From the NCBI GenBank assembly GCA_025617745.1, contig CM046856.1:33660208-33724207 (forward strand): a DNA stretch of 64,000 bases. The letters are read 5' to 3'. The notes beneath the pieces were generated by a model. It was not told the DNA's origin, searched no databases, and worked only from the letters and a program-made list of their open reading frames with translations. Origin of the DNA: Heliocidaris erythrogramma. Its lineage: Eukaryota > Echinodermata > Echinoidea > Camarodonta > Echinometridae. The position numbers and the translations under genes were made by a program. Positions 6,655 through 49,119 of this stretch are shown in pieces; position 1 is the first letter of the stretch; every line of letters starts with the position of its first letter.

Positions 6655-7010
6655 ATATCATCATCAGTATTGTCACCCTGGACACCACAATTACTATCAC
6701 CCTAAAAACTATCACCACCGTTACAACATTGAGGCCACAACGTACGGTGGCAATCACAGCTGCTACCATTATATCGTTACCAGCTACACCTTCTATCACA
6801 ACAAAACCTTCAATATCACCACCATTAAAACCACCACCACCACCACCACCAACATATTATTATTTACACTTCTAAAAGCACCACTAACAATTACCGTCAC
6901 CATCACCATCACCACCCATGACATCATCATCATCATCATCATCATCATCACAGCCACTAGCTGTTCATCCTGAACACCAACACCACCACCTCAGCTGTAT
7001 AGACACCCCA
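6655..7010. repeat. Degenerate ACC/ATC triplet-rich tract
   Basis: The tract mixes ACC, ATC and CCA units, with a pure CCA block near 6831-6851 and a CAT block near 6923-6951. Its threonine- and proline-rich frames come from the repeat. Confidence 0.85.
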
Positions 7011-7087
7011 ATACCACCCAACCTGTATCAACAACACTACAATTAATTTGCCATCTTCACTATCTCCAATGAAACAACAACTATTTA

Positions 7088-7384
7088 GTTAGTAAACGAA
7101 GAAGCTTGACTGGGGAGGAATTTTTTTTTTTAAATTTGTAAACAAATCTTTCGGCATATTACTCCCAGTGTTAAAGATCGTATGCTCGATCTGTAATGAA
7201 AAACACAAGTCAGAAAAAATTGGAACCAGCGGGATTCGAACCTGTCATCTACTGCTTGCCGGGCAGCGACTTAACCACCAGGCTATTCTGGTTCACGGCC
7301 AAGTCACGACGAACTAGAATCAAATACCCAAGATCCTCTTCTTTCTGACTCATTAATATTCAAACGGTCCGCCGTGGAACAATG
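7088..7384 (-). repeat. SINE-like unit 1 of the array
   Basis: The unit is 297 bp. Its tRNA-like segment is at 7221-7296 (-). Read on the minus strand, that segment has 7-bp acceptor-like ends GAACCAG and CTGGTTC, an A-box-like TAGCCTGGTGG and the B box GGTTCGAATCC. A CTGC/GCAG stem encloses CCGGCAA, so position 33 is C, not U. The T-stem pairs poorly, so a working tRNA is unlikely. Confidence 0.8.
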
Positions 7385-7680
7385 GTTAGTAGACGAAGAA
7401 GCTTGACTGGGGAGGAATTTTTTTTTAATTTGTAAACAAATCTTTCGGCATATTACTCCCAGTGTTAAAGATCGTATGCTCGATCTGTAATGAAAAACAC
7501 AAGTCAGAAAAAAAATTGGAACCAGCGGGATTCGAACCTGTCATCTACTGCTTGCCGGGCAGCGACTTAACCACCAGGCTATTCTGGTTCACGGCCAAGT
7601 CACGACGAACTAGAATCAAATACCCAAGATCCTCTTCTTTCTGACTCATTAATATTCAAACGGTCCGCCGTGGAACAATG
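7385..7680 (-). repeat. SINE-like unit 2 of the array
   Basis: The unit is 296 bp and almost identical to unit 1. It has AGTAGACG where the other units have AGTAAACG, and slightly different A and T run lengths. Its tRNA-like segment is at 7517-7592 (-). Confidence 0.8.
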
Positions 7681-7973
7681 GTTAGTAAACGAAGAAGCTT
7701 GACTGGGGAGGAATTTTTTTTAATTTGTAAACAAATCTTTCGGCATATTACTCCCAGTGTTAAAGATCGTATGCTCGATCTGTAATGAAAAACACAAGTC
7801 AGAAAAAATTGGAACCAGCGGGATTCGAACCTGTCATCTACTGCTTGCCGGGCAGCGACTTAACCACCAGGCTATTCTGGTTCACGGCCAAGTCACGACG
7901 AACTAGAATCAAATACCCAAGATCCTCTTCTTTCTGACTCATTAATATTCAAACGGTCCGCCGTGGAACAATG
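7681..7973 (-). repeat. SINE-like unit 3 of the array
   Basis: The unit is 293 bp and nearly identical to its neighbours. Its tRNA-like segment is at 7810-7885 (-). Confidence 0.8.
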
Positions 7974-8257
7974 GTTAGTAAACGAAGAAGCTTGACTGGG
8001 GAGGATTTTTTTTTAATTTGTAAACAAATCTTTCGGCATATTACTCCCAGTGTTAAAGATCGTATGCTCGATCTGTAATGAAAAACACAAGTCAGAAAAA
8101 ATTGGAACCAGCGGGATTCGAACCTGTCATCTACTGCTTGCCGGGCAGCGACTTAACCACCAGGCTATTCTGGTTCACGGCCAAGTCACGACGAACTAGA
8201 ATCAAATACCCAAGATCCTCTTCTTTCTGACTCATTAATATTCAAACGGTCCGCCGT
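7974..8257 (-). repeat. SINE-like unit 4, joined to the inverted unit
   Basis: Its tRNA-like segment is at 8103-8178 (-). The unit stops at CCGCCGTG and runs straight into the sense copy. The bases CCGTG are common to both partners, which suggests a microhomology junction. Confidence 0.8.
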
Positions 8258-8431
8258 GAACCAGAATAGCCTGGTGGTTAAGTCGCTGCCCGGCAAGCAG
8301 TAGATGACAGGTTCGAATCCCGCTGGTTCCAATTTTTTCTGACTTGTGTTTTTCATTACAGATCGAGCATACGATCTTTAACACTGGGAGTAATATGCCG
8401 AAAGATTTGTTTACAAATTAAAAAAAAAAAA
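8254..8431 (+). mobile_element. Sense SINE-like unit with poly-A tail
   Basis: It begins with the tRNA-like segment at 8256-8331 (+) and continues through the tail seen inverted in the array. It ends in a run of A immediately before the right target-site duplication. The B box GGTTCGAATCC is intact, so a pol III type 2 promoter of the SINE kind is plausible. Compared with the full repeat unit it lacks the segment upstream of the tRNA-like part. Confidence 0.75.
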
Positions 8432-8445
8432 CAACTATTTAGTTA

Positions 8446-8525
8446 TATTAATCTTTTATTATTTCATGTAATTACTCATATACTGGGATCCTTGATAATT
8501 CTTTATTTTCCATGTTGTTTTACAG
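8446..8525. other. Non-coding sequence up to a possible acceptor
   Basis: AT-rich sequence ending in a T-rich tract and TTTTACAG, a good-looking acceptor for the next entry. Confidence 0.35.
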
Positions 8526-8576
8526 ATGGCTCTGTACGTGCCACCAGCTTGATCCAATAGGCAGGGAGACCAAATG
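8526..8576 (+). CDS. Possible 51-nt exon, identity unknown
   Basis: The segment is flanked by TTTTACAG and GTAAGTTC, both close to splice consensus. One frame is open throughout and reads WLCTCHQLDPIGRETK. If it were joined directly to the WASHC2-like exon at 474-616, the frame would read DGSVRATSLIQ and then stop. Either the two are not consecutive exons or this one ends an alternative transcript. It could also be a non-coding exon. The splice signals are the main support. Confidence 0.25.
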
Positions 8577-9834
8577 GTAAGTTCAAGCATTTGAGACATT
8601 ATCTTAAAAGGAAGAACCACAAATTCTGGATTGCATAACTTTCATGATAATTTGATAACGAAATATATATGAAAATGAGCACCGGATTACACTAATATCT
8701 GTTTATTTTGTGATGGGTTTTATATGAATAATCACACTCACAGACATGCAAGTATGTCTCCACTTACTTATACAATCCGGGTTGACCAGTGGTATGTGAT
8801 GGTCTGTAAACTTTTGTATGGCAGTAGACGAGGCATTTCTTATGCTCTCGGGTGTAGTAAGTGATAGGATTTAGTCCTTAATTTAGTCCATGATAGGACT
8901 ACATGCAGTCCTTGAAATGTACTGAAAGCCATTGTATAAACTCCTGTTGGAACTGCATAAAGGCATTTAAGCACTGTACATAAATTATTTTTGATTGTCA
9001 GTTCTTAGTAGTTTTCACCCTGTCTCCGGACTTAGTAACAGACAAAACAGGGGGCACCATTTTCTTTCTCCTGTCTGACTGATTTGTTAAGAATACGATT
9101 CTACTTGGTTGGTCACGTGATGTGTGCAGTCAGCCGTGACTGATCCTACGTTTCCTTCCAATGAAGCTCCAATCGAGGAGACTATTCACGAAGGATGTGC
9201 CTGGGTAATCAGCCATGCTCGGAACAGGGTAGCACATTTAATTGTCTTCTCAGATATTCATGGATATTCATGCCAAATTTGGCTCGGGACAAAGACTTTC
9301 CCCTGCGCTCTTTCCAGCCAGTTTTTTAAAATAAATTTTTCAGTTTTTGGCCTTGACATTATCTACTCTTTCAAGAGTTGGTTTAGCTGTGGAGAATGTG
9401 AATAAAACCGGCCAGTGAATGTGTGTGAGTGGTATGCAAACAAGGAGCCGTTTCATTTTAGATTAATTCGATTAGTTAGATTAAATTGGTTAAAAATGAT
9501 CATGTTGACATTCTGGTATGGATAGTCTCTCTCGATTCAGATATAAGTGCATACCTAGTATAGGATTCCTCGAAATGCTCTTTGTGCTGTATGAGACTGC
9601 TGGCGCTAAAAGCCAGGGTATTAATTTCTACTTTGGAAGTCTATATATAGAGGCAATAACGATATGCACTAAAATACTATTATATATTACCCTCATATAC
9701 TACTACTGTTATTATCATTATCCTCTCCATGAACACCATCATTATGACTCCCATCTTCACCATTATTATCACTTAAGTTAAAATACTGCCACCATCTCCA
9801 GATTCTATCACTATCAAAAATTTTACGTTTAGTA
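8577..9834. other. Non-coding stretch with a weak possible exon
   Basis: At about 9130-9205, after GTGTGCAG, a frame reads SAVTDPTFPSNEAPIEET, but the possible donor GGTAATC is weak. No domain was recognised, so no exon is annotated. Confidence 0.3.
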
Positions 9835-21084: not shown

Positions 21085-22101
21085 CTATATAAGTGATTTA
21101 TTCTTGGTCTTAGGGGAACTGCGTTGAATTGGTTTCAGTCTTATCTTGATGGCTGGTCAGCACAAGTCGACATAGATGGGGAACTTTCAGATCCAACCAT
21201 TTCTAGGTTTGGTTTACCCCAGGGCTCAGTTGTAGGTCCCACTGGTTTCACAGTTTATATTCTCCCAGTTGGCGACATCGCCCGGTACCATAATGTTTCG
21301 TATCATGTTTATGCTGATGACATTCAGTTGTATGTAGCATTTGATCCTAAAATTCCTGGGGAACTGGATAAGGCCATGTTTTCACTACAATCTTATATAT
21401 CAGATATAAGGAACTGGCTGACAGCAAATAAGTTAAAACTCAATGATAGTAAAACTGAATTTTTCATTGCTGCATCACCATACAATTACAAAAATTTGCC
21501 AGATTTAACACTGTCAGTTGGTGAAGTTTCTATACATCCATCGGATTCAATAAGGAATCTGGGTGCCTTTTTTGATGTTAACATGACTATTTACACACAT
21601 TAACAATGTTTGCCGCAGTGTGATTTTTCATTTGAGGAACATATCTAGGATTCGTAAATTTATTGATCAAACTACTTGTCATCATGCTGTAAGGTCACTT
21701 ATTCTTTCCAGACTAGACTATTGTAACTATTGTAATGGGCTTCTTTCCTCTATACCAAAATCTCATGTAAACCGTCTACTTCCCAACCTTTACTTCGTTC
21801 CCTTCACTGGCTGCCCATTCAAAAACGTATCATCTTCAAATTAGTTCTTTATGTTTATAAATATCTCAGTAACCAGGCTCCAGGGTACCTATCTGAATGC
21901 TTAACTGTATATACACCTAGTAGAAATCTCAGATCCTCAAATCATAACCTTCAGCTCAGCTACCCAATGACCCGAAATTTGTCAGGTGATAGGACTTTCA
22001 CAGTTACTGCATCGAGGCTATGGAATAATCTCCCCTTGACCATTAGACAGTCAGCATCCATAAAGACCTTTAAAAAAGCTGTGAAATCATATTTATTTTA
22101 A
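21085..22101 (+). mobile_element. 5'-truncated CR1/L2/Jockey-group LINE, degraded reverse transcriptase
   Basis: The remnant starts inside the reverse transcriptase, around a G-L-R-G-T-A-L-N-W-F stretch. It keeps LPQGSVVGP and the catalytic box YADD at 21310-21321. It runs to a typical C-terminal end, LWNNLPLTIRQSASIKTF, with a stop near 22100. It is dead: a frameshift lies near 21600 where a stop (TAA at 21601-21603) interrupts the frame, a 9-base duplication near 21725 doubles the C-N-Y motif, and about 20 codons are missing before LLRSLHWLPIQKR near 21790. The endonuclease and 5' part are absent. No poly-A tail or clear target-site duplication was found. Confidence 0.85.
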
Positions 22102-23642: not shown

Positions 23643-24525
23643 GTAAGATGCTGTTCATGGGAGACAGACATTAAGGTAATCGATTGTGCTTTCGAGGGTT
23701 ATTCAAAGGCTTTGGGTTTGCGCCACAGGCCTTCCGTCTATGATGCTTTTTTTTTGCTGTGTATAGGTACCTTGGATATTCCATGTAACGGAATAATTCC
23801 TAGGTAATGCTGTCCTGGTATCAGCCGTGTATTAGAGTCCTGATATCATCTGACTCCCATTGGCTGTTCATAAACTTATCATTTTAATTGATGCTCCTGT
23901 CCCCTCATCCATGACGCCTTTGAATTCCTTCACACTCGGTTCTGCCGTTCACAATAACACCCCCTCCCCTAGTGACTAGCAGTGAACTATTCCATTAATT
24001 GATACAACCTGTAAAAACAACCAAAATTATGAGAATGATAGGCAGTGAATTTCCCCTTGTAGTCGAATCTGTACCAAGTGTACGCCTAACCTATTTCTCA
24101 TGTCGGTAGAAGGGATGATGGCTTCTTTCACCTGGAAATTGATCTCTGTATACCGGGAGTCTGACTTCCAGACTCCTGTCCTCTTTTCAAAATACCAAAA
24201 TCGATAGCTTAATACATTCTCGTTTACCAATTTTCTATCACTTTTTAGGGAGTTCCGAAAACAATTGTCTAAGGACAGATGTTTTGAATTCCCTCTAGGA
24301 TCGAAAGAGCATGAAAGAGTAAGGTATTATATTTTTGTATTCTTATTTCGGAAAGCTGAATGCGACTAAGTCATGCGAAACTCATTGGAAATTAGCCAAT
24401 CTAAGCAAGGATCTTCAAGAGCTGGAGTCACATCTAGCTCATTCCCTTTGAACCATGTTCGATTCCGCTAGGAAAAATACGTCAGGCATGTGCTTAACTG
24501 GATCTTCCTTGCAAATAAGAAGACA
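23643..24525. other. Non-coding stretch up to the L1-like insertion
   Basis: No gene was recognised. The methionine at 24455 and the first 23 codons of the long open frame belong to this flank, because the candidate target-site duplication AAATAAGAAGACA ends at 24525. Confidence 0.5.
24513..24525. repeat. Left target-site duplication of the L1-like element
   Basis: AAATAAGAAGACA here is repeated at 27282-27294, directly after the poly-A tail. The 3' end of the primed bottom strand would be TTATTT, which suits annealing to poly-A. Confidence 0.65.
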
Positions 24526-27112
24526 GACTGAGAACGGCATTATCACAGATGCAAAGCGTATTCTTGAAGAGGAAAGGTCCTTTTATTCTCATTTGTATTC
24601 ATCAAATAGTAACACGGGTGACACCTCTTTTGCCTCTTTAGATAACTTGAATTTACCAATGTTAGATTCAAATGATAATAGTAATTTGGGGGGACAAATA
24701 TCGGAAAAGGAATGTTATGAAACTATTTTAACTTTTGCAACTGATAAATCGCCAGGGTCAGATGGCCTTCCCATTGAATTTTACAAAGTCTTTTGGTCGG
24801 AAATAAAACAATTGTTATGTTCTGTATACAATAAAAGTTTTGGGGATAAATCCCTTCCATACTCTATGCGGAGAAGCGTAATTTTTTTGTTACCAAAGAA
24901 AGGCAAAAACCTGTTATCTCTTAAAAACTGGCGCCCGATATCACTACTCAACTGTGATTATAAAATCTTAGCAAAACTTCTTTCTCTACGGATTAAGAAG
25001 GTCCTACCTAAATTGATAAGTGATGACCAATATGGTTTCCTGAAAGGTCGTTTCATTGGAGAAAATATACGCTTATTTATCGATATGCGAAATTTTTGTA
25101 AGACGCACAATGTTAAGGGCGTGGCCTTGAGTATCGACTTTGAAAAGGCCTTCGATATGATTGATTGGGAATTTTTAAATTATGCTCTGAATATTTTTGG
25201 TTTCGATCAGCCATTTATCCACTGGGTCAAAGTGTTATATTTCAAGATAGAGGGTTGCGTAATTAACAATGGATTTTCTTCAAAGCCTTTTGAAATTCAA
25301 CGCGGAGTGAGACAAGGTTGTCCATTATCGCCGTATTTATTCATTATTGCTGTCGAGCTTCTTGGTTGTTTAATTCGACAAAACGATCAAATTAGAGGCC
25401 TGAAGGTGCATGGTACAGAGGTTAAAATTTGTCAATACGCAGACGATACATCCATATTTCTAGAGCCTGATGAAGCAAATGTTGAATGTTGTGTTAAAGT
25501 GTTGGATAAATTTAAAGACATGTCAGGTTTGAAAATCAATATTGAAAAATGTAATGTTATAAGATTTGGAAACTTTACAGATATTTTATGTCATGACATT
25601 CCATTTACTTGGCCTACGGATTATTTCATGTATTTGGGCGTAAAAATTCCTCTTAGTGAACGCCATAGTTTATATGACCTTAATTTCAAACCCAAACTCG
25701 AAGAAATAAGAACAATCTTAAATATTTGGAGTTGTAGAACTTTAACTTTGTATGGCAAAATTGTCATCATAAAATCCATGATTATTCCCAAACTTATATA
25801 TCTTCTGTGCATTATACCAAGTCCACCTAAGTCGTTTTTTGTGGAGGTTCAACAATTATTGTTTAGGTTTTTATGGAACAATAAGATCGATAAGATCAAA
25901 CGGTCTTTGCTTTACAATGAATACGATGAGGGCGGTTTGAAAATGCCACATTTATTATCTTTTGATCGTGCTATGAAAATTACATGGGTTAAAAGGTACC
26001 AAGATGAAGGTAATAGGAGCAAATGGAAAGTATTTTTTAGAATGGCTCTCAAAAACATTGGTGGTGATAACTTTATCAAGTGGAATCTTTCATGTGATCA
26101 TCTGTTATTTGTTGAAAGCACCGATCCATTCTGGAACGATGTTCTTTCGGCCTGGAGTCATTATAAGTACTACAATCCAGTTAAGTTCAAGGAAATTATT
26201 TCACAACCGCTGTGGTTTAACTCCCATATATTGATAGATGGTAAACCAGTTTTTGTTAAAAGGTGGTTTGAATCCAACTTGATTTATGTAAGAGACATTT
26301 TAACTGACGATGGTGCCTTTATGTCATTTGATCAAGTGTTACAGAAATATAATTCAGAATCTTTCTTGACATACTTTTCCATATTATCTGCAATTCCTAA
26401 ACAATGGAAAGACATCATAAGACGAGGTGACTTTATGAATGAAGACTTATTATCAAATCAACCTGATGATAATGTGGATAAGTTTTTGAAACAAAAAAAA
26501 GTTTCTAAATTTTGTTACTTACTTTTCCTCAAAAGTTATAGAATTCCAATTTCAGAAACAGATCAACAAAACAAATGGCAAATTGATTTATCACTGGATT
26601 TGTGTAATTCTCTCGTATGGAAATCTCGTTTCGCTTTGATTTACAAGTCATCTATAGACAATAAGATGAGGAATTTTCAATTTAAGTTCATTCACCGGAA
26701 AATCGCGACGCAACTTTTTTTGTGCAAAATAGGTATAAGTGAAACTTCCTTTTGTAATTTTTGTGAATCTTGTCCACAATCATTAATTCATTTATTTCTG
26801 AGATGCAACATTGTGACACTATTCTGGAACGAAATCGTTACGTGGCTTAGAAGCAAAAATATCCGCCAGTGTATGTTGTCTGATGAGGAAATTTGTTTTG
26901 GAACTTTAATTCTTGATCAGTTTTACTTCATAAATACTATTATACTCCAAGCCAAATATTTCATTTATTCATGCAAAGTTCAGAACACTGTTCCTTTGTT
27001 TAAAGTCTTTATATATTCACTTAAACAATTAGAAAGAACAGAACGTATCATTGCCTTTAAAAAGAATCGATTAGAATTTCATGAAAAAAAATGGCAAGCC
27101 CTAAAACGCTAG
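24526..27112 (+). CDS. L1/Tx1-like ORF2 remnant: reverse transcriptase and CCHC tail
   Basis: The frame is open from ATG 24455, but its first 23 codons are flanking DNA, leaving about 861 element codons (family ORF2 is usually about 1250). In order, with residues counted from 24455: SPGSDGLPIEFY near 105, LPKKGKNLLSLKNWRPISLL near 150, SIDFEKAFDMIDW near 228, RGVRQGCPLSPYLF near 290, the catalytic YADD at 328-331 (25436-25447) and FMYLGVKI near 390. A Cys-X2-Cys-X8-His-X4-Cys knuckle lies at 767-784. In full-length elements this protein copies the element RNA at a nicked target. The YADD box and C-terminal knuckle place it in the L1/Tx1 group. The subfamily is not known. Confidence 0.9.
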
Positions 27113-32545: not shown

Positions 32546-34735
32546 TTTTTTGTGAGACGCCGCATATAGCCTTTATACAATGATCATTTGATTTGGCGGC
32601 ATATAATCGGCGCCACAGACGGGGATAGGGGGTGGGGTCATCCCTATCACTATAAGCCTTACCCGAGGGCCTGCCCTTTACACATATTAGTGATGATAAA
32701 AATTGCGTAGTATTCAATACTGTTTGTAAAGTGTCAAATTTTCACCTTTAATTTTTTTTTACAACGGTTGGATGTTGTTCATGGCGTAGTTGCATCTTTG
32801 GGGCACTGTACTATGAAAACAGAAACCGGCGCTTTGTTGGTCGTGTCTTTTCGGCCATGCCAAATGAAATCATACTCTATATTGGCGGCATGAGCCTGAT
32901 CGTAAATGTGTATCAAGCATCCCGCCGTGAGGCATGCAGGTGTCAATAAATTTTTGAGGAGACGGTACCCGTTAAAACGAAAATAATATTGAAGAAATTA
33001 TCATTATACATTAACACGTGGAGATGGTTATTGCAGATTCACCCCTTTTCCTTATTGAAGTATTTAGGATTTCGTGTGTGCGTGTGAGTGTGTGTACACA
33101 TTCTATGTATTTCCTTTTGTTAAACTTTCAGTTGGTATCATCTATTGGCTAGAACGTTATCCAGTTCAGTTTTATATTCGCTCGTCATTTTAAACAGTGT
33201 TTATTCGGGTGTAGAATGTACTTTGTATAGTGCAAAGATGACTATTTCCACCCAAGATTTTCTTCTAGTAGCCCTATGTTGATGTTTAATTACATATCTG
33301 TGGCTGCTGTGAAGTTCATATTTTTCTAATGTGATTTTGCGGGTCTTATTGGATGGCATTCGCTTTGAGGGTGCCTGTTCACTTTGGGTTTGACCGAAGG
33401 AAGTATGAAAATGGCTAATAAATTTATTTGAAACGATCTGCCTATTTCTGTTCCATGGTGTTTCACATTTTCTTTTGTACTTGAAATGCAGTCGAAAGTG
33501 AGTATCGAAACAGAAGTCATTACACGATATGCAACGTGACAAAATTTGGACGTTGTTTTGAAAAATAGACATCTCGACAGGTGACCTTAACAGCCATCAT
33601 TTTATTGCAAGTCATTTGAATGGTGCAACTATTCACAATGATTTAATTTCAAATTCAAACGTATAAAGATTACTGAATACTAGATAGAAAATGTTTTTCA
33701 TTGTCACTATTATAAGCCATGTTGTCAAAGACGATTGTACACAGTGATAAAGATGATTGACTATGCATGTATAGACATAACAGCGTTTTAAAGAGAGAAG
33801 ATAGGAAGAGAGAGGGAAAGAAAAAAGAGAGATAAGAGGAAGGGCAGTGGATTCGGGGGTAGTGGAGGAATCGGAGAGAGAATAATTGAAAAAAAAAATA
33901 CCCTTTTAAATGATCATACGTTTGATTCCTCATCATGACCAAGTAATGAATTTTCAATAATTAATTGATAATATTTGAGATATTGTACTTAGTAACGTGT
34001 TTTCTTCTAATTTTGACCTTGCACATGAAAGCTGATTAGGATACGAAGTAATGAGCTTTTTAATTGGTCTATTATGAATGATTGTTCGTAAAACATATTG
34101 CTTATTCTGATTGTGACCTTGCACTCAGCAAACTGAAAGCAAACATGGGAAGCAAATAATTAGAAGCAAACTTAACGCACAAGTTAGATCAGAATAGCTC
34201 GTTATAATACTATATTGCCTTTATGGCCTTGATGGCCCAAGCTCGGTTAATGTCCTTTCAGTCCTTGAATACTGTGAAAGGATATTTTTTCGCGCGATCA
34301 GATTGAGACAAGATTAAGCCGTCATGTTTGACCAATGGACCTTAGTACATGACATCCCTTTCCATCAACCCAACACTCCTTTATAATTACCGTCTTCTAT
34401 TTCTTCTTATGTGCAAGGTATCAAAAGGTTGAGGTTCTCTTTTCCCCACTATAATTACCGTCGTGTTCTGCGAATGAAGAGATTGAGGTGCTCTTTTGTT
34501 TTCTTGTTAGAATCACCGGATATAAAACTCATATTTATAGTTAGTGATGTGTGAATGACAGCACACGAGAGAGAGAGAGAGAGAGCGAAGGAAGAATGAG
34601 AGGGAGTGAGAGATTTTTTTTTTTTTTTTTTGGGGGGGGGGGGGACGGGAGGAAAGAAGGGAAGAGAAAAACGATGGTAAAGTAAAGAGAGATGAGTCAC
34701 TTGAAAGGAAGGGAAACAAAAGGTAATAATAGTCG
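32546..34735. other. Non-coding stretch; a minus-strand open frame has no family
   Basis: A 123-codon minus-strand frame (33201-33572) is cysteine- and histidine-bearing at its start but has no recognisable domain or splice context. It is not called a gene. A GA tract lies at about 34566-34586, followed by a T run and a G run at 34615-34645. Confidence 0.35.
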
Positions 34736-36101
34736 AGGAGCCTGTCCCGAAATAGTCACCCCATTTTACCCATAATTTGACCCTGTAAAGTTACTTAGAC
34801 CATCTAAGTCATTGACAAAAAATGCCGTCGGGATGGGGTGTCAGACGGCCACTAAAAATTTGGGTAAACTTTTTTCCTTTGAAGCCCAGGGACGAAATTA
34901 TGTCAGAAGGAAGAGCTATGGATGTCCATTCCAAAAATATAAAAACTGACAAAGTTGTCCATCAGAAGGGGGGGGGGGGTCAGTCCCCCTGAAATGAAAT
35001 CCCCAAAGTGCCCTTAGTCAACGCTCTGGCCCCCTAATGCTCTGTATGTAAAGGAAACCATTTTCTTACTTTCTATGATTATTCAAAAGCGTTTTATTCA
35101 AATTCAAATTCAAATTTTCAAAGAATAATATTGAGCAAAATAATCTTGTTGAGGCGCAATTTAGTGTTAGTTGGTCTTTTGATTAATAAGTTATTAAATT
35201 ATAAAAAAAAGATATTGCTTTCTAAAAAGTATCCAAAAATGTTTTCATGATTATGTAAACACACCCATTGTCCACCTTCACCTGTTTGACAAGGCATAAT
35301 AGAGTGCTTTTCAGGTATCTCTGGTATGTGACTGCCAGGCTGAAATGTACTATGCATGATACTCCTCTATTATGCCTTGTCAGATGGTCAATAGGTGTAT
35401 TTACACAATCCTGACAATATGTTTGGCTACTTTTGAGAAAGCAATACATTTTCACAATTTAATAACTTATTAATGAAATGACCAGTTGACACCAAATTGC
35501 ACCTCAAGAAAGTCAGTATACTCATCATTATATTATGCAAATTTGAATTGAATTGAATAAAACGCTTTTTAGATATTTCATTTCATTACATTTGTTTATC
35601 ATAGTCAGAAGGTAAGTAAAATGTATTTTTCTTTACATACTTTTGGGGGCAAAGCGTTGTCAAAGGGCACTTTGGGGTTTTCTTTTCAAGGGGTCCGACG
35701 GCATCTTCTCGATAGACAATTTTGTCAGTTTTTATATTTTTGGAATGTACATCCAATAGCTCTTCCTTCTGACAAAATTGGTCCCTGGGCTTTAAGGGAA
35801 AAAAATTTACCCCAATTTTTAGGGGCTGTCTGACGCCCCATCCCGACGGAAATTTTTGTCAGTATTTTGTGTTTTGTATTGTCCAGTCATACTACTTCAT
35901 ATTGACAAAGTTTGGTGTATGGCGAAGATGGGGTGAAATCGACCCGACTTTCGGGTCTCTTTTGGGGGCTCTGAGGGCTAAACCCGGCGGCTATACGGTC
36001 AGGTTGACAACCTTTTTTGTCAATGACTTAGATGGTCTAAGTAACTTTACTGGGTCAAATATCATGGGTAAAATGGAATGAATATTTCGGGACAGGTTCC
36101 T
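34736..36101. mobile_element. 1.37-kb palindromic foldback element
   Basis: The ends AGGAGCCTGTCCCGAAATA and TATTTCGGGACAGGTTCCT are inverted. Pairing continues the whole way to the centre near 35335 (GGCATAATAGAG and CTCTATTATGCC). Arms are about 600-765 bp. The right arm has about 150 bp more than the left (about 35860-36010), between two copies of a TTGACA(A)-type motif, so the left arm probably lost it. Both arms contain a TTCAAATTCAA or TTGAATTGAA run near the middle. The open frames here are by-products of the arms. No transposase was recognised. Confidence 0.85.
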
Positions 36102-38652
36102 GGCCTATAAGGAAAATAACCGTATAAGTGGCAGGAGAGAGAAAAATCCCGTCCAGATTCAAAGCAACATTTGCAGTGAAATTGATTTACAGAACGCTAT
36201 GTACAAGCGGTATGACATATTTTACGTAAAATGAATAGTATGATTAGTGTAGTTTTATGATTAAAAAATGATTTCAAAATTAGAGGTTTATGGGAGAGAG
36301 AGACAGAGAGATACGAGAAAATGAATATGAATTGTGAGGGGAGCAGTTGACAAACCAGAACAAATCAAAAGAGACAGTGAAAAGATAGGAATCTGTAAAT
36401 ATGTAAAGATTATATGAAGCAGTATTTCAGAGAAACAAGTTTTTAAAAAATGGAGAGAATGACAGAAGAAAGTGGATGTAATGTGAAAGTAAACATAAAC
36501 TAAAAAATAAACGGTGAAAAAGAGGAAAATTTTAAGGGATGCATTCAGAGGAAAATGGGTTGAAATAGAGTTGGCAATTGCAGACGAAGTAAATAGAGAG
36601 AGAGAGAGAAAGAAAAAAAAGCAGACAACAAAATCTCACCTTAAACAGAAATGGAGATAGATATGAAAATAGCCGTAGCAAAGTGCAATAGCTATTTAAC
36701 GGCCGGTTGCAGACTATCTGATCGTCATTTTTTTCATATTGGATGAAATGACTTGAAGACCTTGTATACAGTTGTATTTGCACTCGTTTGTTTGGAAGCC
36801 CACGAATGCTTGAGCCTACATGCTTATCAACAAACATAGATAACAGATCCATCAGAAACTCATTACTTGGTTAATCCAGCCATCATGCATTTCTCACGAG
36901 AGAAATATACTTTGACTGTATTCGTGGCCGAAGCAATGCGACCATCCGATTTTGTAGCAAATATTATATGCAATTACTTTTTCAACCAGCTAAAAGCAGT
37001 TTTTGCTTAGACATGATTTCACAGCTTCACTGTAATTACATATTAAACATCTATTTCCATAGTTTGTTCCGGACTTGGAATCACGAAGGTCTCCATTTTC
37101 ATGTAGAGGACAACATGTATTCATTGACAAACACGACATTTTGAATTGTAAATTGAAGAGGAAGATAAAGCAATTTGCTTAAAGTCATGACTTTGTGGTT
37201 AAAGAGTGAGTTTCATAAAAAAAAAAAAAACAACGGACAAGTCTGTCTTGTAGACTCATTTAGAGTTATGAAGAGACAACTGTATAATTACATATTAAAC
37301 ACACACACACACACATACACACTCACATTGAACGTGGAAGGCAAAAAGATTAAGAAATAAATTCGTTAAAGCACGAAAAGTGATTTTGGTGATAAGGTGC
37401 TCATTTCCTGTCTACTATAGATAAAGGATATTCTATACTTGCGTTGTGCACGCTTGTGTGCCTTTGTAAAGTCATGTTCATATGATATCATGGATTACAA
37501 TTAATGTACTTTCCACCATGCATCGATTTCGTGTTCAGAATTAGCTAGTGAGATTAATAGATTACATGCAGGTGACAAGCATACTTATTCTGTAGCTGAT
37601 ATGTTTATTGCTCATCGACTAGAATACTCAATGATGAATCAACAAAGGAGAAATGTTTTTTTTATCCACTATCATAAATGAACAAGTTGAAGTCAACAAT
37701 GTTCCTTTGAATGCAAGCTGAGTAATTGAGAGAAAAAATCTGTACCGGGACAACTCATATGATATTTCATTCAGTTGTACACCCGGCAAAAATGAAAGTG
37801 GGCACTATTTATAATTAAGATTTTCAAATAAATATTTAATATAAAGTCATCTTTCATGTATCAAAGTAAACATGAAATAATCATGTTATAGATGACATGC
37901 AATTAAAATCATACAATTCATGCATGAGTGAGCATAGTCAATTAACAATAAATGAGTATCAAAAAGAAACTTGCAAAAATGGGGCATCTAGCCATTTTTA
38001 ATGTTGATGAGCATTCCATCTTGTAGAGTCAAATTAAAACGATGAAAAACACAATCACGAGAAACATCTAAATTTGCATGTCAAAACCATACAGTCCTGA
38101 GACTACAGTTGACATCCATAGCTCAATCTTCCTCAATGTTTCTTATTCTTTGATTTCAATGTCGAACAAGAATGTCTTACAGATGCTCATGTACCTGTTC
38201 ATTAACATTTGAATGGCTACTTTAGGGACCGCGGTACCGGGGGGGGGGGGGGCTGTAGCCCCCACTTTTTTCAGTAAACACGTGCAAACGTATGGCAGTG
38301 CAAAATGTGGTATACACGCAGCCCCCCATTAAGCCCCTCCACTTTCCAAGACGTTCCGCGGCGCCTGTACTTGCTGCAATATTTTCAAATTTCTTAATCA
38401 GACCTTCCAAAGGTTTATCGAATTCAAGCGTGAATGTTCAAAACTTGATCTTAATTGATGTTGGTAGAGTATTCATTTTTCCTTAATTAAGTGTATATTT
38501 TATATATATTTATTTTGACGGTTTATATAACAAAAAATAGAACAATAAAGTGTGTCCACTTTTATTTTTGTTGCGTGTATGTAAAGCGGAATAAATGGAG
38601 ACACAAAAATGATAGGAAAAATAAAACAGTAACCAGTGAACATGATACAAAT
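36102..38652. other. Non-coding stretch with GA- and CA-rich microsatellites
   Basis: GA-rich purine sequence spans about 36290-36620. A (CA)n tract lies at about 37300-37324. A G run at about 38238-38251 sits beside GGGACCGCGGTACCGG. No gene was recognised. Confidence 0.4.
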
Positions 38653-47408: not shown

Positions 47409-48669
47409 TTAAAGGAGAATGAAAGTCAAAACATTGTAATCAAGCGTTTACAAACTAAAATTGTACTTGTTTGAATGATCCAAACATGTCAAAAATCTGA
47501 TGTACCATATTTGAGTAAATTCAATCTTAAAACATGAACTTGCGACGATCTGGCACGGACATGGGCGCCGCCATGTTATGCGGAAAGTGACGAAATTGCG
47601 CTATAGTGTGTGATTGGCTCTTACCATTCATAGCTATCATTCAAAATGATGTCTCTACTAAACGTGTACAAAATATAATTTAAAGCAGATCTGTATCTAA
47701 AAATATTGAAAAACTGTAATTTACGTATTTAAAATGAAATAAAAATAGTGATAACAATACAATTTATTTTACACTGATCTTTAGATTATGAACTAGACCT
47801 GTTTACAGATAATTGTATATGCATACCTTTTTGACAAAGGTTGCTAATGACAAGTCCATAGCTTGCATACCAGAGCATGCCCAACGTAGCAACAACTAAT
47901 GTATGCAAGCTGGATTTCAAGTGTATTTATAGTAGTAGGTGAATGGAATAACTCATCACTAGGTCCTCGGAGAAAAAAACATCCATACAGACTATGAACA
48001 CGATGACAAAGAAGCGGACAAAATATACAGCTCCTCATTGTACCCTCCACAATTGTTCTGGTAACAAAAGAACATCCCTTCATTGCTATTGTATAAAATA
48101 AGTAGAACAGGTGAATATGCATTTGACATCTGTTCCACATACTTTTACATAATAGCAGTGGAGGGATGTTCTATTGTCTACCAGAGCAAGTGTGAGAGGT
48201 ACAATGAGGAGCTGTATATTTTGTCCGCTTCTTTGTTCGCCATGTTCATAGTGACATTTGAAACATTAAGAAACAGGTCTATTTGATAATCTAAAGATCA
48301 GTGTAAAATTAATTGTATTGTTGTTATCACTATTTTTATTTCATTTTAAATACGTAAATTACAGTTTTTCAATATTTTTAGATACAGATCTGCTTTAAAT
48401 TATATTTTGTACACGTTTTGTAGAGACATCATTTTGAATGATAGCTATGAATGGTAACAGCCAATCACACACTATAGCGCAATTTCGTCACTTTCTGCAT
48501 AACATGGCGGCGCCCATGTCCGTGCCAGATCGTCGCAAGTCAATGTTTTAAGATTGAATTTACTCAAATATGGTACATCAGATTTTTGACATGTTTGGAT
48601 CATTCAAACAAGTACAATTTTAGTTTGTAAACGCTTGATTACAATGTTTTGACTTTCATTCTCCTTTAA
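47409..48669. mobile_element. 1.25-kb palindromic element flanked by TTAA
   Basis: TTAA at 47409-47412 and 48666-48669 flank inverted arms of about 390 bp that begin AGGAGAATGAAAGTCAAAAC and end GTTTTGACTTTCATTCTCCT. The arms stay closely matched through GATCTGGCACGGACATGG and AAGCAGATCTGTATCTAAAA. The loop contains another palindrome (47991-48252). The TTAA target suggests piggyBac-type transposition, although no transposase is present. Confidence 0.8.
47991..48252. mobile_element. Smaller palindromic MITE in the loop of the 1.25-kb palindrome, copy 1
   Basis: ACTATGAACACGATGACAAA on the left and the inverse-like TTTGTTCGCCATGTTCATAGT on the right pair imperfectly. Inner blocks AAGAAGCGGACAAAATATAC and GTACAATGAGGAGCTGTATA are also paired. 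A second copy lies at 48884-49119. Confidence 0.75.
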
Positions 48670-48883
48670 TTCCCGTAGTTTATTACTTATATCCCTGCAT
48701 TTAAATAATGTTCAGATAAATGAGCCTTACCAGATGTCATTGGGGACTATTGGAAAATTTGGTGAAATTGTTTTTGAATTACGAGCCTTCAGAACATTAA
48801 GCATAATTGGTTTTGGATTTCAATCAAGAACACTACGTATTTTAGAATAATTATCCAAGCGCCAGATGTGCCATATCTTCTTT
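48670..48883. other. Non-coding spacer
   Basis: Short spacer between two related palindromes. Nothing else was recognised. Confidence 0.4.
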
Positions 48884-49119
48884 CACTATGAACATGACGA
48901 ACAAAGAAGCGGACAATTTATGCTGCTCCTCATTGTACCCTTCACAATTGCACTGGTTAACAAAAGAACATCCATTCATTGCTATCCTGTAAAAATATGT
49001 AGAACAGGTGTCACATAATAGCAGTGAAGGGATGTCGTTTTGTTTACTAGAGCTATTGTGGAGGGTACAATGAGGAGCTGCATAAATTGTCCGCTCTCTT
49101 TGTCACCGTGTTCGTAGTG
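48884..49119. mobile_element. Smaller palindromic MITE, copy 2
   Basis: The ends CACTATGAACATGACGAACA and the inverse-like GTGTTCGTAGTG, with inner blocks AAGAAGCGGACAATTTATG and CATAAATTGTCCGC, match copy 1 over most of its length. The copies differ by small indels, so they are separate and old. Confidence 0.75.

Follow-up and report, generated by a model that had tools for sequence, protein, structure and literature searches.

The window, by which we mean the whole stretch of 64,000 nucleotides of Heliocidaris erythrogramma DNA that was analysed, contains at positions 7076 to 8445 a block of SINE units in which an antisense arm is followed by a sense arm. Its features are as follows.

7076..7091, no strand: left target-site duplication, AACAACTATTTAGTTA, 16 bp, the last 4 nt of which (GTTA) also match the unit
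7088..8258, minus strand: antisense arm (B arm), 4.0 units with a period of 293 bp
7088-7294, minus strand: outer partial unit of the B arm, from unit position 203 (site B) down to 1
7295..7590, minus strand: first full unit of the B arm
7591..7883, minus strand: second full unit of the B arm
7884..8176, minus strand: third full unit of the B arm
up to 8258, minus strand: final 82 bp of the B arm, unit positions 293-212
7519-7590, 7812-7883 and 8105-8176, minus strand: copies of the tRNA-like head
8253..8258, no strand: inversion joint, a 6-nt microhomology (GCCGTG) common to both arms
8258..8428, plus strand: sense arm (A arm), a partial copy covering unit positions 1-171, with an A-run at its end
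8258..8329, plus strand: tRNA-like head of the sense arm, with a 7-bp acceptor stem
8430..8445, no strand: right target-site duplication, an exact second copy of AACAACTATTTAGTTA, 16 bp

The unit is a non-coding, tRNA-like SINE of 293 bp, numbered here from the first base of the tRNA-like head, with the A-run at about 162-171 and a leader at 172-293. By model comparison the head appears only weakly tRNA-like: the best model of the tRNA clan was tRNA-Sec, with 19.4 bits (E 0.65) against a cut-off of 47 bits, and ARAGORN found no tRNA. In unit coordinates the block ends at 203 on the left and at 171 on the right; because GTTA is common to the left edge and the duplication, the edge of the unit can be placed only to within 4 nt. 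An earlier note, made from the letters of this DNA, had placed a 15-bp duplication outside the whole block, which was borne out, the duplication being exact and 16 bp long. Matches to its 15-mer (up to 2 mismatches) occur in the window only at the two block edges; as a control, at least 2 such matches were found in 3 of 100 shuffles. The layout described in the note, with four inverted units on the left and a sense copy with an A-run on the right, also stands, but the A-run is not solely a terminal tail: it is present inside every complete unit too, where 122 bp more of the unit follow. That one duplication encloses the entire block can be read directly from the sequence. The best explanation of the block is a single retrotransposition event of a non-coding, tRNA-headed element, which we regard, jointly with the full mechanism discussed below, as probable.

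A search of the genome for the unit, as proposed in the note, revealed tandem multimers at many other loci. The assembly comprises 1,064,227,859 bases in 26 contigs, with the window on contig C4 at 33660208-33724207. Its contig C24 (12,905 bases) carries COX1; a 501-bp stretch, translated in five codes, has the look of a canonical COX1 when the echinoderm code is used (AAA as N, ATA as I), as would suit an echinoderm or, less probably, a hemichordate. In the whole assembly, exact copies of a body marker (33 nt), a tail-segment marker (23 nt) and a leader marker (30 nt) numbered 6,862, 5,370 and 4,758, respectively, and the reversed-pattern control gave 0 matches for each of the three. Querying with the SINE body by itself gave no matches, probably owing to the abundance of its words. 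The counts peak just upstream of start site A and are lowest farthest from both start sites, a gradient between markers of different lengths in which stand-alone bodies may raise the body count. An unselected sample, made up of the first 100 matches per marker, restricted to C1:1-17.5 Mb and not picked by array similarity, yielded 82 clusters, 31 of them minus-then-plus, 27 plus only, 24 minus only and 0 plus-then-minus, arms without a marker going unseen. Single-marker clusters made up 30 of the 82, in 21 clusters one marker recurs on the same strand at a distance of 275-320 bp, and extrapolation gives about 5,000 clusters genome-wide. The note had expected tandem SINE multimers with an inverted terminus to be unusual; in this genome the structure is not, clusters with both strands making up 31 of 82 in 17.5 Mb of unselected sequence. 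The layout of the block is a common pattern of this SINE family, not a local oddity, and a second subfamily, about 95% identical, has the same anatomy (subfamilies U and V).

Loci were fetched from 30 places among the matches listed (our own window included), from 12 new places derived from 14 matches, and from 22 of the 34 new places among the matches listed in a third search, the first and third sets being biased towards full units. Blocks shorter than 60 bp, and those lying within 40 bp of where a fetched piece ended, were left out; of the 70 that were counted, 12 are on the plus strand only and 8 on the minus strand only, and all 50 two-armed blocks are minus-then-plus. In 48 of the 70 the block as a whole is enclosed by a duplication, versus 1 of 150 mismatched pairs; the other 22 are without a clear duplication.

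Several other arrangements were seen in passing. Loci L053 and L057 (C21:1133263 and C21:5202118) contain the same insertion and duplication twice, in inverted order, and L065 and L066, both on C20, are two arrays with a common right flank; both cases are probably later segmental duplications. At C2:51768822-51782753, units of the second subfamily are present on one strand over about 14 kb, a length that corresponds to roughly 48 units. Diverged tandem repeats of about 170 bp adjoin two arrays (L025:872-1473 and L050:2425-3609), and at L029:3475-3669 a SINE body stands alone; it begins near unit 272 and ends in an ATT-rich tail, and differs in this from the units within arrays. When the window and the loci fetched at that point were scanned for further tandem repeats of the bipolar kind, 9 rows from outside the family came up, among which a second strand appeared solely in 4 overlapping rows of one L035 repeat, with an internal match of 51-60 bp.

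The outer ends of the arms fall at two places in the unit. With a duplication counted as present at a score of 9 or more, the duplicate loci L057 and L066 removed, and edges classed as A (unit 138-176) or B (190-218) by ranges set after viewing the data, 40 of 41 two-armed blocks with a duplication have one arm starting from A (unit ~163) and the other from B (~202). The remaining block is B/other, and neither A/A nor B/B occurs. After overlap removal the start positions range from 133 to 171 for A and from 194 to 207 for B. The eight two-armed blocks without a duplication comprise 2 A/B, 1 B/B, 4 B/other and 1 A/other; one-armed blocks without a duplication number 13 (L066 dropped). The six one-armed blocks with a duplication start mostly from B (5 B, 1 A), which suggests (n=6) that B is primed before A.

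Duplications of the 40 A/B blocks measure 9-18 bp (mean 13.7, one mismatch permitted), and their flanks show a roughly symmetric tendency towards AAAC|duplication|GTTT: C is the last base before the duplication in 20 of 40 blocks, and G, T and T follow it in 18, 28 and 25 of 40, respectively. Each of the two cut strands thus has a tendency to read |GTTT. On average the duplication overlaps the unit by 4.1 nt at B and by 4.0 nt at A, values that stand without a null and that the aligner can stretch. GTTTAC with A/T-rich sequence is found in both start regions, at unit positions of about 194-203 (GTTTACTAAC) and 151-160 (GTTTACAAAT); spotted by eye, it is a possible common recognition motif.

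By their anatomy, with arms on opposite strands inside one duplication, these insertions would have arisen by cutting and extension of both target strands. The earlier note had called the block a footprint of twin priming, and part of that description holds: both target strands appear to be primed on sense RNA, and the cDNAs are joined by microhomology. Joints between the arms overlap by at least 2 nt in 33 of 49 cases, compared with 16% of 20,000 random joins, and 9 of the 49 contain inserted bases. Twin priming is known as an occasional event in L1 retrotransposition, and the inverted segment, the microhomology at the joint, the A-run at one edge and the duplication would all be expected if a LINE of the L1 type had made the insertions by ordinary twin priming; LINE-type reverse transcriptases are also present in the window. 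However, the variable internal second priming site of LINE-1 twin priming was not observed, the starts being confined to two short regions and used once each (40 of 41, with 0 A/A and 0 B/B); moreover, B is situated 3' of the A-run, which several of the A ends precede, and the flanks are without the TTTT/AA target of L1. Ordinary twin priming by a LINE is therefore rated as improbable, and the A/B starts and the AAAC|duplication|GTTT flanks fit a Penelope-like process better.

The two arms of a block carry the same genotype. Across 46 two-armed blocks, the arms agree in 233 of 235 SNP comparisons (null mean 0.82) and in 19 of 24 comparisons of A-run length (null 0.37), each with p 0.0002, the lowest value that 5,000 shuffles allow; at site 259 the T variant of L018 escaped the pattern, and the comparison there rests on G units. 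For subfamily U alone the agreement is 198/199 for SNPs (null 0.87) and 18/22 for A-runs (null 0.31), while the nine blocks of subfamily V, which offer almost no variation to work with, gave no signal (33/34 versus a null of 0.96; A-runs 1/2). Individual variants, and likewise lengths of the A-run, can be followed through both arms: C102T is present in 6/6 and 6/6 covering units of the two arms of L014, and T195C in 6/6 and 20/20 of those of L020. The variants of the 22 loci with at least 5 units comprise 82 singletons, including 27 indels, 10 that are fixed, that is, present in 85% or more of the units, and 8 that are intermediate; among the last, L031 site 68 lies inside a later local duplication, and two others are variants of 4 out of 5 units.

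These patterns bear on the alternatives that the earlier note had left side by side, namely a multi-unit RNA template or amplification after insertion; a template that yields more than one unit is upheld, but growth after insertion is disfavoured by the predominance of singletons and by the genotype common to both arms. The corresponding scenario, in which a short twin-primed insertion later grew by unequal crossing-over, can point to L031:6251-7718, where a 931-bp piece comprising the array end and flank was repeated in tandem after insertion. Stepwise growth, however, should leave many variants common to some units but not to others, against the 8 intermediate and 82 singleton variants found, and it conflicts with the 233 of 235 concordant comparisons, which makes it very improbable.

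A variant carried by every unit of both arms implies a one-unit bottleneck at insertion, and repeated copying of a small circle supplies such a bottleneck; an RNA circle is thus, as far as can be judged from the sequences, most likely the template. We propose that an enzyme, probably a dimer, would cut both strands at an AAAC/GTTT-like dyad, that each 3' end would act as a primer for reverse transcription of one and the same sense RNA, at A in one case and at B in the other, and that both polymerases would travel in the same direction on a single 293-nt RNA circle, completing as many as about 20 laps. Such laps would leave two antisense cDNAs on opposite strands. In the sequences, the 3' ends of the arms point outward, and the unit position of the junction between the arms varies, usually with a short microhomology there. 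The enzyme would be that of a Penelope-like element (PLE), with a GIY-YIG endonuclease and a telomerase-like reverse transcriptase. In this full reading (Penelope-type, two-strand, circular template), which is held with moderate confidence, two-strand priming at two sites is the best-supported part, whereas the circularity and the Penelope helper are features that we infer.

The same two-strand priming might instead have used a long linear RNA transcribed from a tandem genomic array. Multi-copy mRNA is a scenario proposed for PLE in the available text of PMC11167929, and a tandem transcript of uniform units could look like a circle. Four arrays (L011, L018, L028 and L031) are mixed with respect to a diagnostic site, and L012 differs in 1 of 8 units; mixed arrays do not fit a single one-unit circle and need template switching, a multi-unit template or gene conversion. 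Their periodicity, judged by eye, is not decisive. At site 111 of L031, the first five units inward from the outer end have T,T,C,T,T in both arms, and the arms differ at the sixth; this, too, favours a linear template. On the other hand, a copy never exceeds the number of units in its source transcript and splits into two arms, so that by this reasoning arrays should shrink; yet the L018 block extends over 9,115 bp with 33 unit segments, the maximum observed, and single arms reach 5,894 bp. The variants present in all covering units of both arms in L014 and L020 likewise need a one-unit bottleneck. A linear template thus seems unlikely, though it retains a substantial chance.

The lengths of A and B arms are similar (Wilcoxon p 0.41) and uncorrelated (Spearman 0.19, p 0.23, n 42). 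The inner ends of the arms are distributed unevenly over the unit (KS p 1e-4 and 0.03), and they pile up at unit 120-139, a range picked after viewing the data, in 15 of 49 and 10 of 49 cases where 3.3 would be expected. This range lies just 3' of a predicted hairpin at about unit 103-120; the pile-up could be due to reverse transcriptase arriving from the 3' side and stopping, or to easier annealing of the cDNAs. It would also suit snap-back, in which the cDNA folds on a palindrome and primes itself, as proposed for Penelope elements in the available text of PMC3846280. Snap-back should, however, produce mirror-image arms with the same end, whereas the arms of L030 measure 43 and 2,499 bp, arm lengths are uncorrelated, and one end is A and the other B in 40 of 41 blocks; it is hardly credible as the source of these arrays. 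Growth after insertion and snap-back self-priming were thus both tested and disfavoured, on the grounds of arm agreement, A/B ends, singletons and uncorrelated lengths.

Folded as a circle, the sense unit is predicted to be rod-like, with an energy of -81.3 kcal/mol compared to -64.9 +/- 4.9 for 100 shuffles (z -3.3). The hammerhead core CTGANGA is absent from both strands of the unit, Rfam at E<=1 gave no ribozyme match over window positions 6800-8800, and at gathering level Rfam gave no match in the 12 sources examined. The two-site priming and the putative circle can be combined into a wider proposal, offered more tentatively and at somewhat less than an even chance: a SINE-like element with a circular-RNA life cycle and a Penelope-like enzyme, the dimer of which, on one circle, would prime A and B once each, the polymerases chasing one another and leaving bipolar rolling-circle arrays. 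Closure of the circle would perhaps be achieved by tRNA-processing enzymes acting on the tRNA-like domain, not by a ribozyme.

The suggestion of a Penelope-like enzyme comes from two starts about 39 nt apart and extension of both strands, which together form the described Penelope signature. According to the available text of PMC11167929, PLE protein extends both strands, reverse transcription begins at two adjacent internal sites, and the stretch between the two starts forms a genomic tail of 30-40 bp; further steps of PLE insertion are described there as still to be validated. The A-B spacing observed here agrees with such a 30-40 nt tail. By its anatomy the mechanism is Penelope-like. In this genome, GIY-YIG matches above the cut-off numbered 121 among 150 scored of 1,721 candidates, with open frames of up to 974 aa, save one of 2,415 aa. 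The family was also matched in 12 of 14 control genomes, so that the domain by itself is no proof of PLE. Among six pairs of neighbouring GIY-YIG matches within 12 kb, five are minus-plus, one is plus-plus and none is plus-minus, and the neighbours include a minus-plus-plus group on C3. A candidate 5' region of 601 bp (L076), placed by guess upstream of a GIY-YIG match on C4 and presumably encoding a PLE-like N-terminus, had no Pfam hit; compared with the unit, this region, the sole candidate so examined, has longest common words of 8-9 nt.

Likenesses to PLE, including Poseidon of Anolis (PMC11167929) and Penelope of Adineta (PMC3846280), extend, in the available parts of these papers, to head-to-head inverted and direct tandem copies, a duplication round the whole, a tail of 30-40 nt between two starts, extension of both strands and AT-rich targets (here by inspection). 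Terminal repeats inverted head to head, copies in tandem and a 31-bp tail that may be present or absent are described in the available text of PMC3846280. In contrast, the present element is about 293 nt long, non-coding, tRNA-headed and without a hammerhead, it forms arrays of up to tens of units, and nearly all its two-armed insertions combine A and B, whereas the available text of PMC11167929 reports no strand difference in start site. Metazoan retrozymes, as far as the available text of PMC7229834 and PMC7761336 extends, are similar in their tandem units (150-450 bp) and duplications, and their circular RNA is proposed there to be reverse-transcribed into multi-unit tandem cDNA. They differ in possessing a type I hammerhead, which the element lacks, and in circles shown there by northern blot, whereas here the circle is something we infer; bipolar arrays are not described for retrozymes in the available text of the two papers, and that of PMC7229834 does not use the words inverted, opposite or head-to-head.

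Transfer RNA-derived SINEs are short, non-coding elements with a tRNA-like head and an A-run, and they are moved by LINEs. The present element resembles them in being short and non-coding, in its weakly tRNA-like head, in its A-run and in its dispersed copies with duplications; it departs from them in having the head inside a circularly permuted unit, a T6 run after the head, and insertions that are often multi-lap and two-armed. In the literature as covered by titles and opening lines, most subscription journals being outside reach, such bipolar, circle-like SINE arrays were not described, and within the same coverage no SINE was presented as moved by a Penelope enzyme. The arrays suggest that a SINE can be so moved. 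The completion of PLE insertion is unsettled according to the available text of PMC11167929, and the retrozyme papers (PMC7229834, PMC7761336), in their available text, propose reverse transcription of circles without footprints of this kind. The SINE family provides thousands of short, often near-identical insertions whose start sites, joints, duplications and two arms are readable to the base, so that the two-site, two-strand Penelope model and rolling-circle retrotransposition become directly testable.

Elsewhere in the window, open frames with RVT_1 domains, one of them with zf-RVT, lie at 24452-27112 and 21097-21603 and are LINE-like, and long inverted repeats at 34729-36108 and 47409-49119 are possibly fold-back elements.
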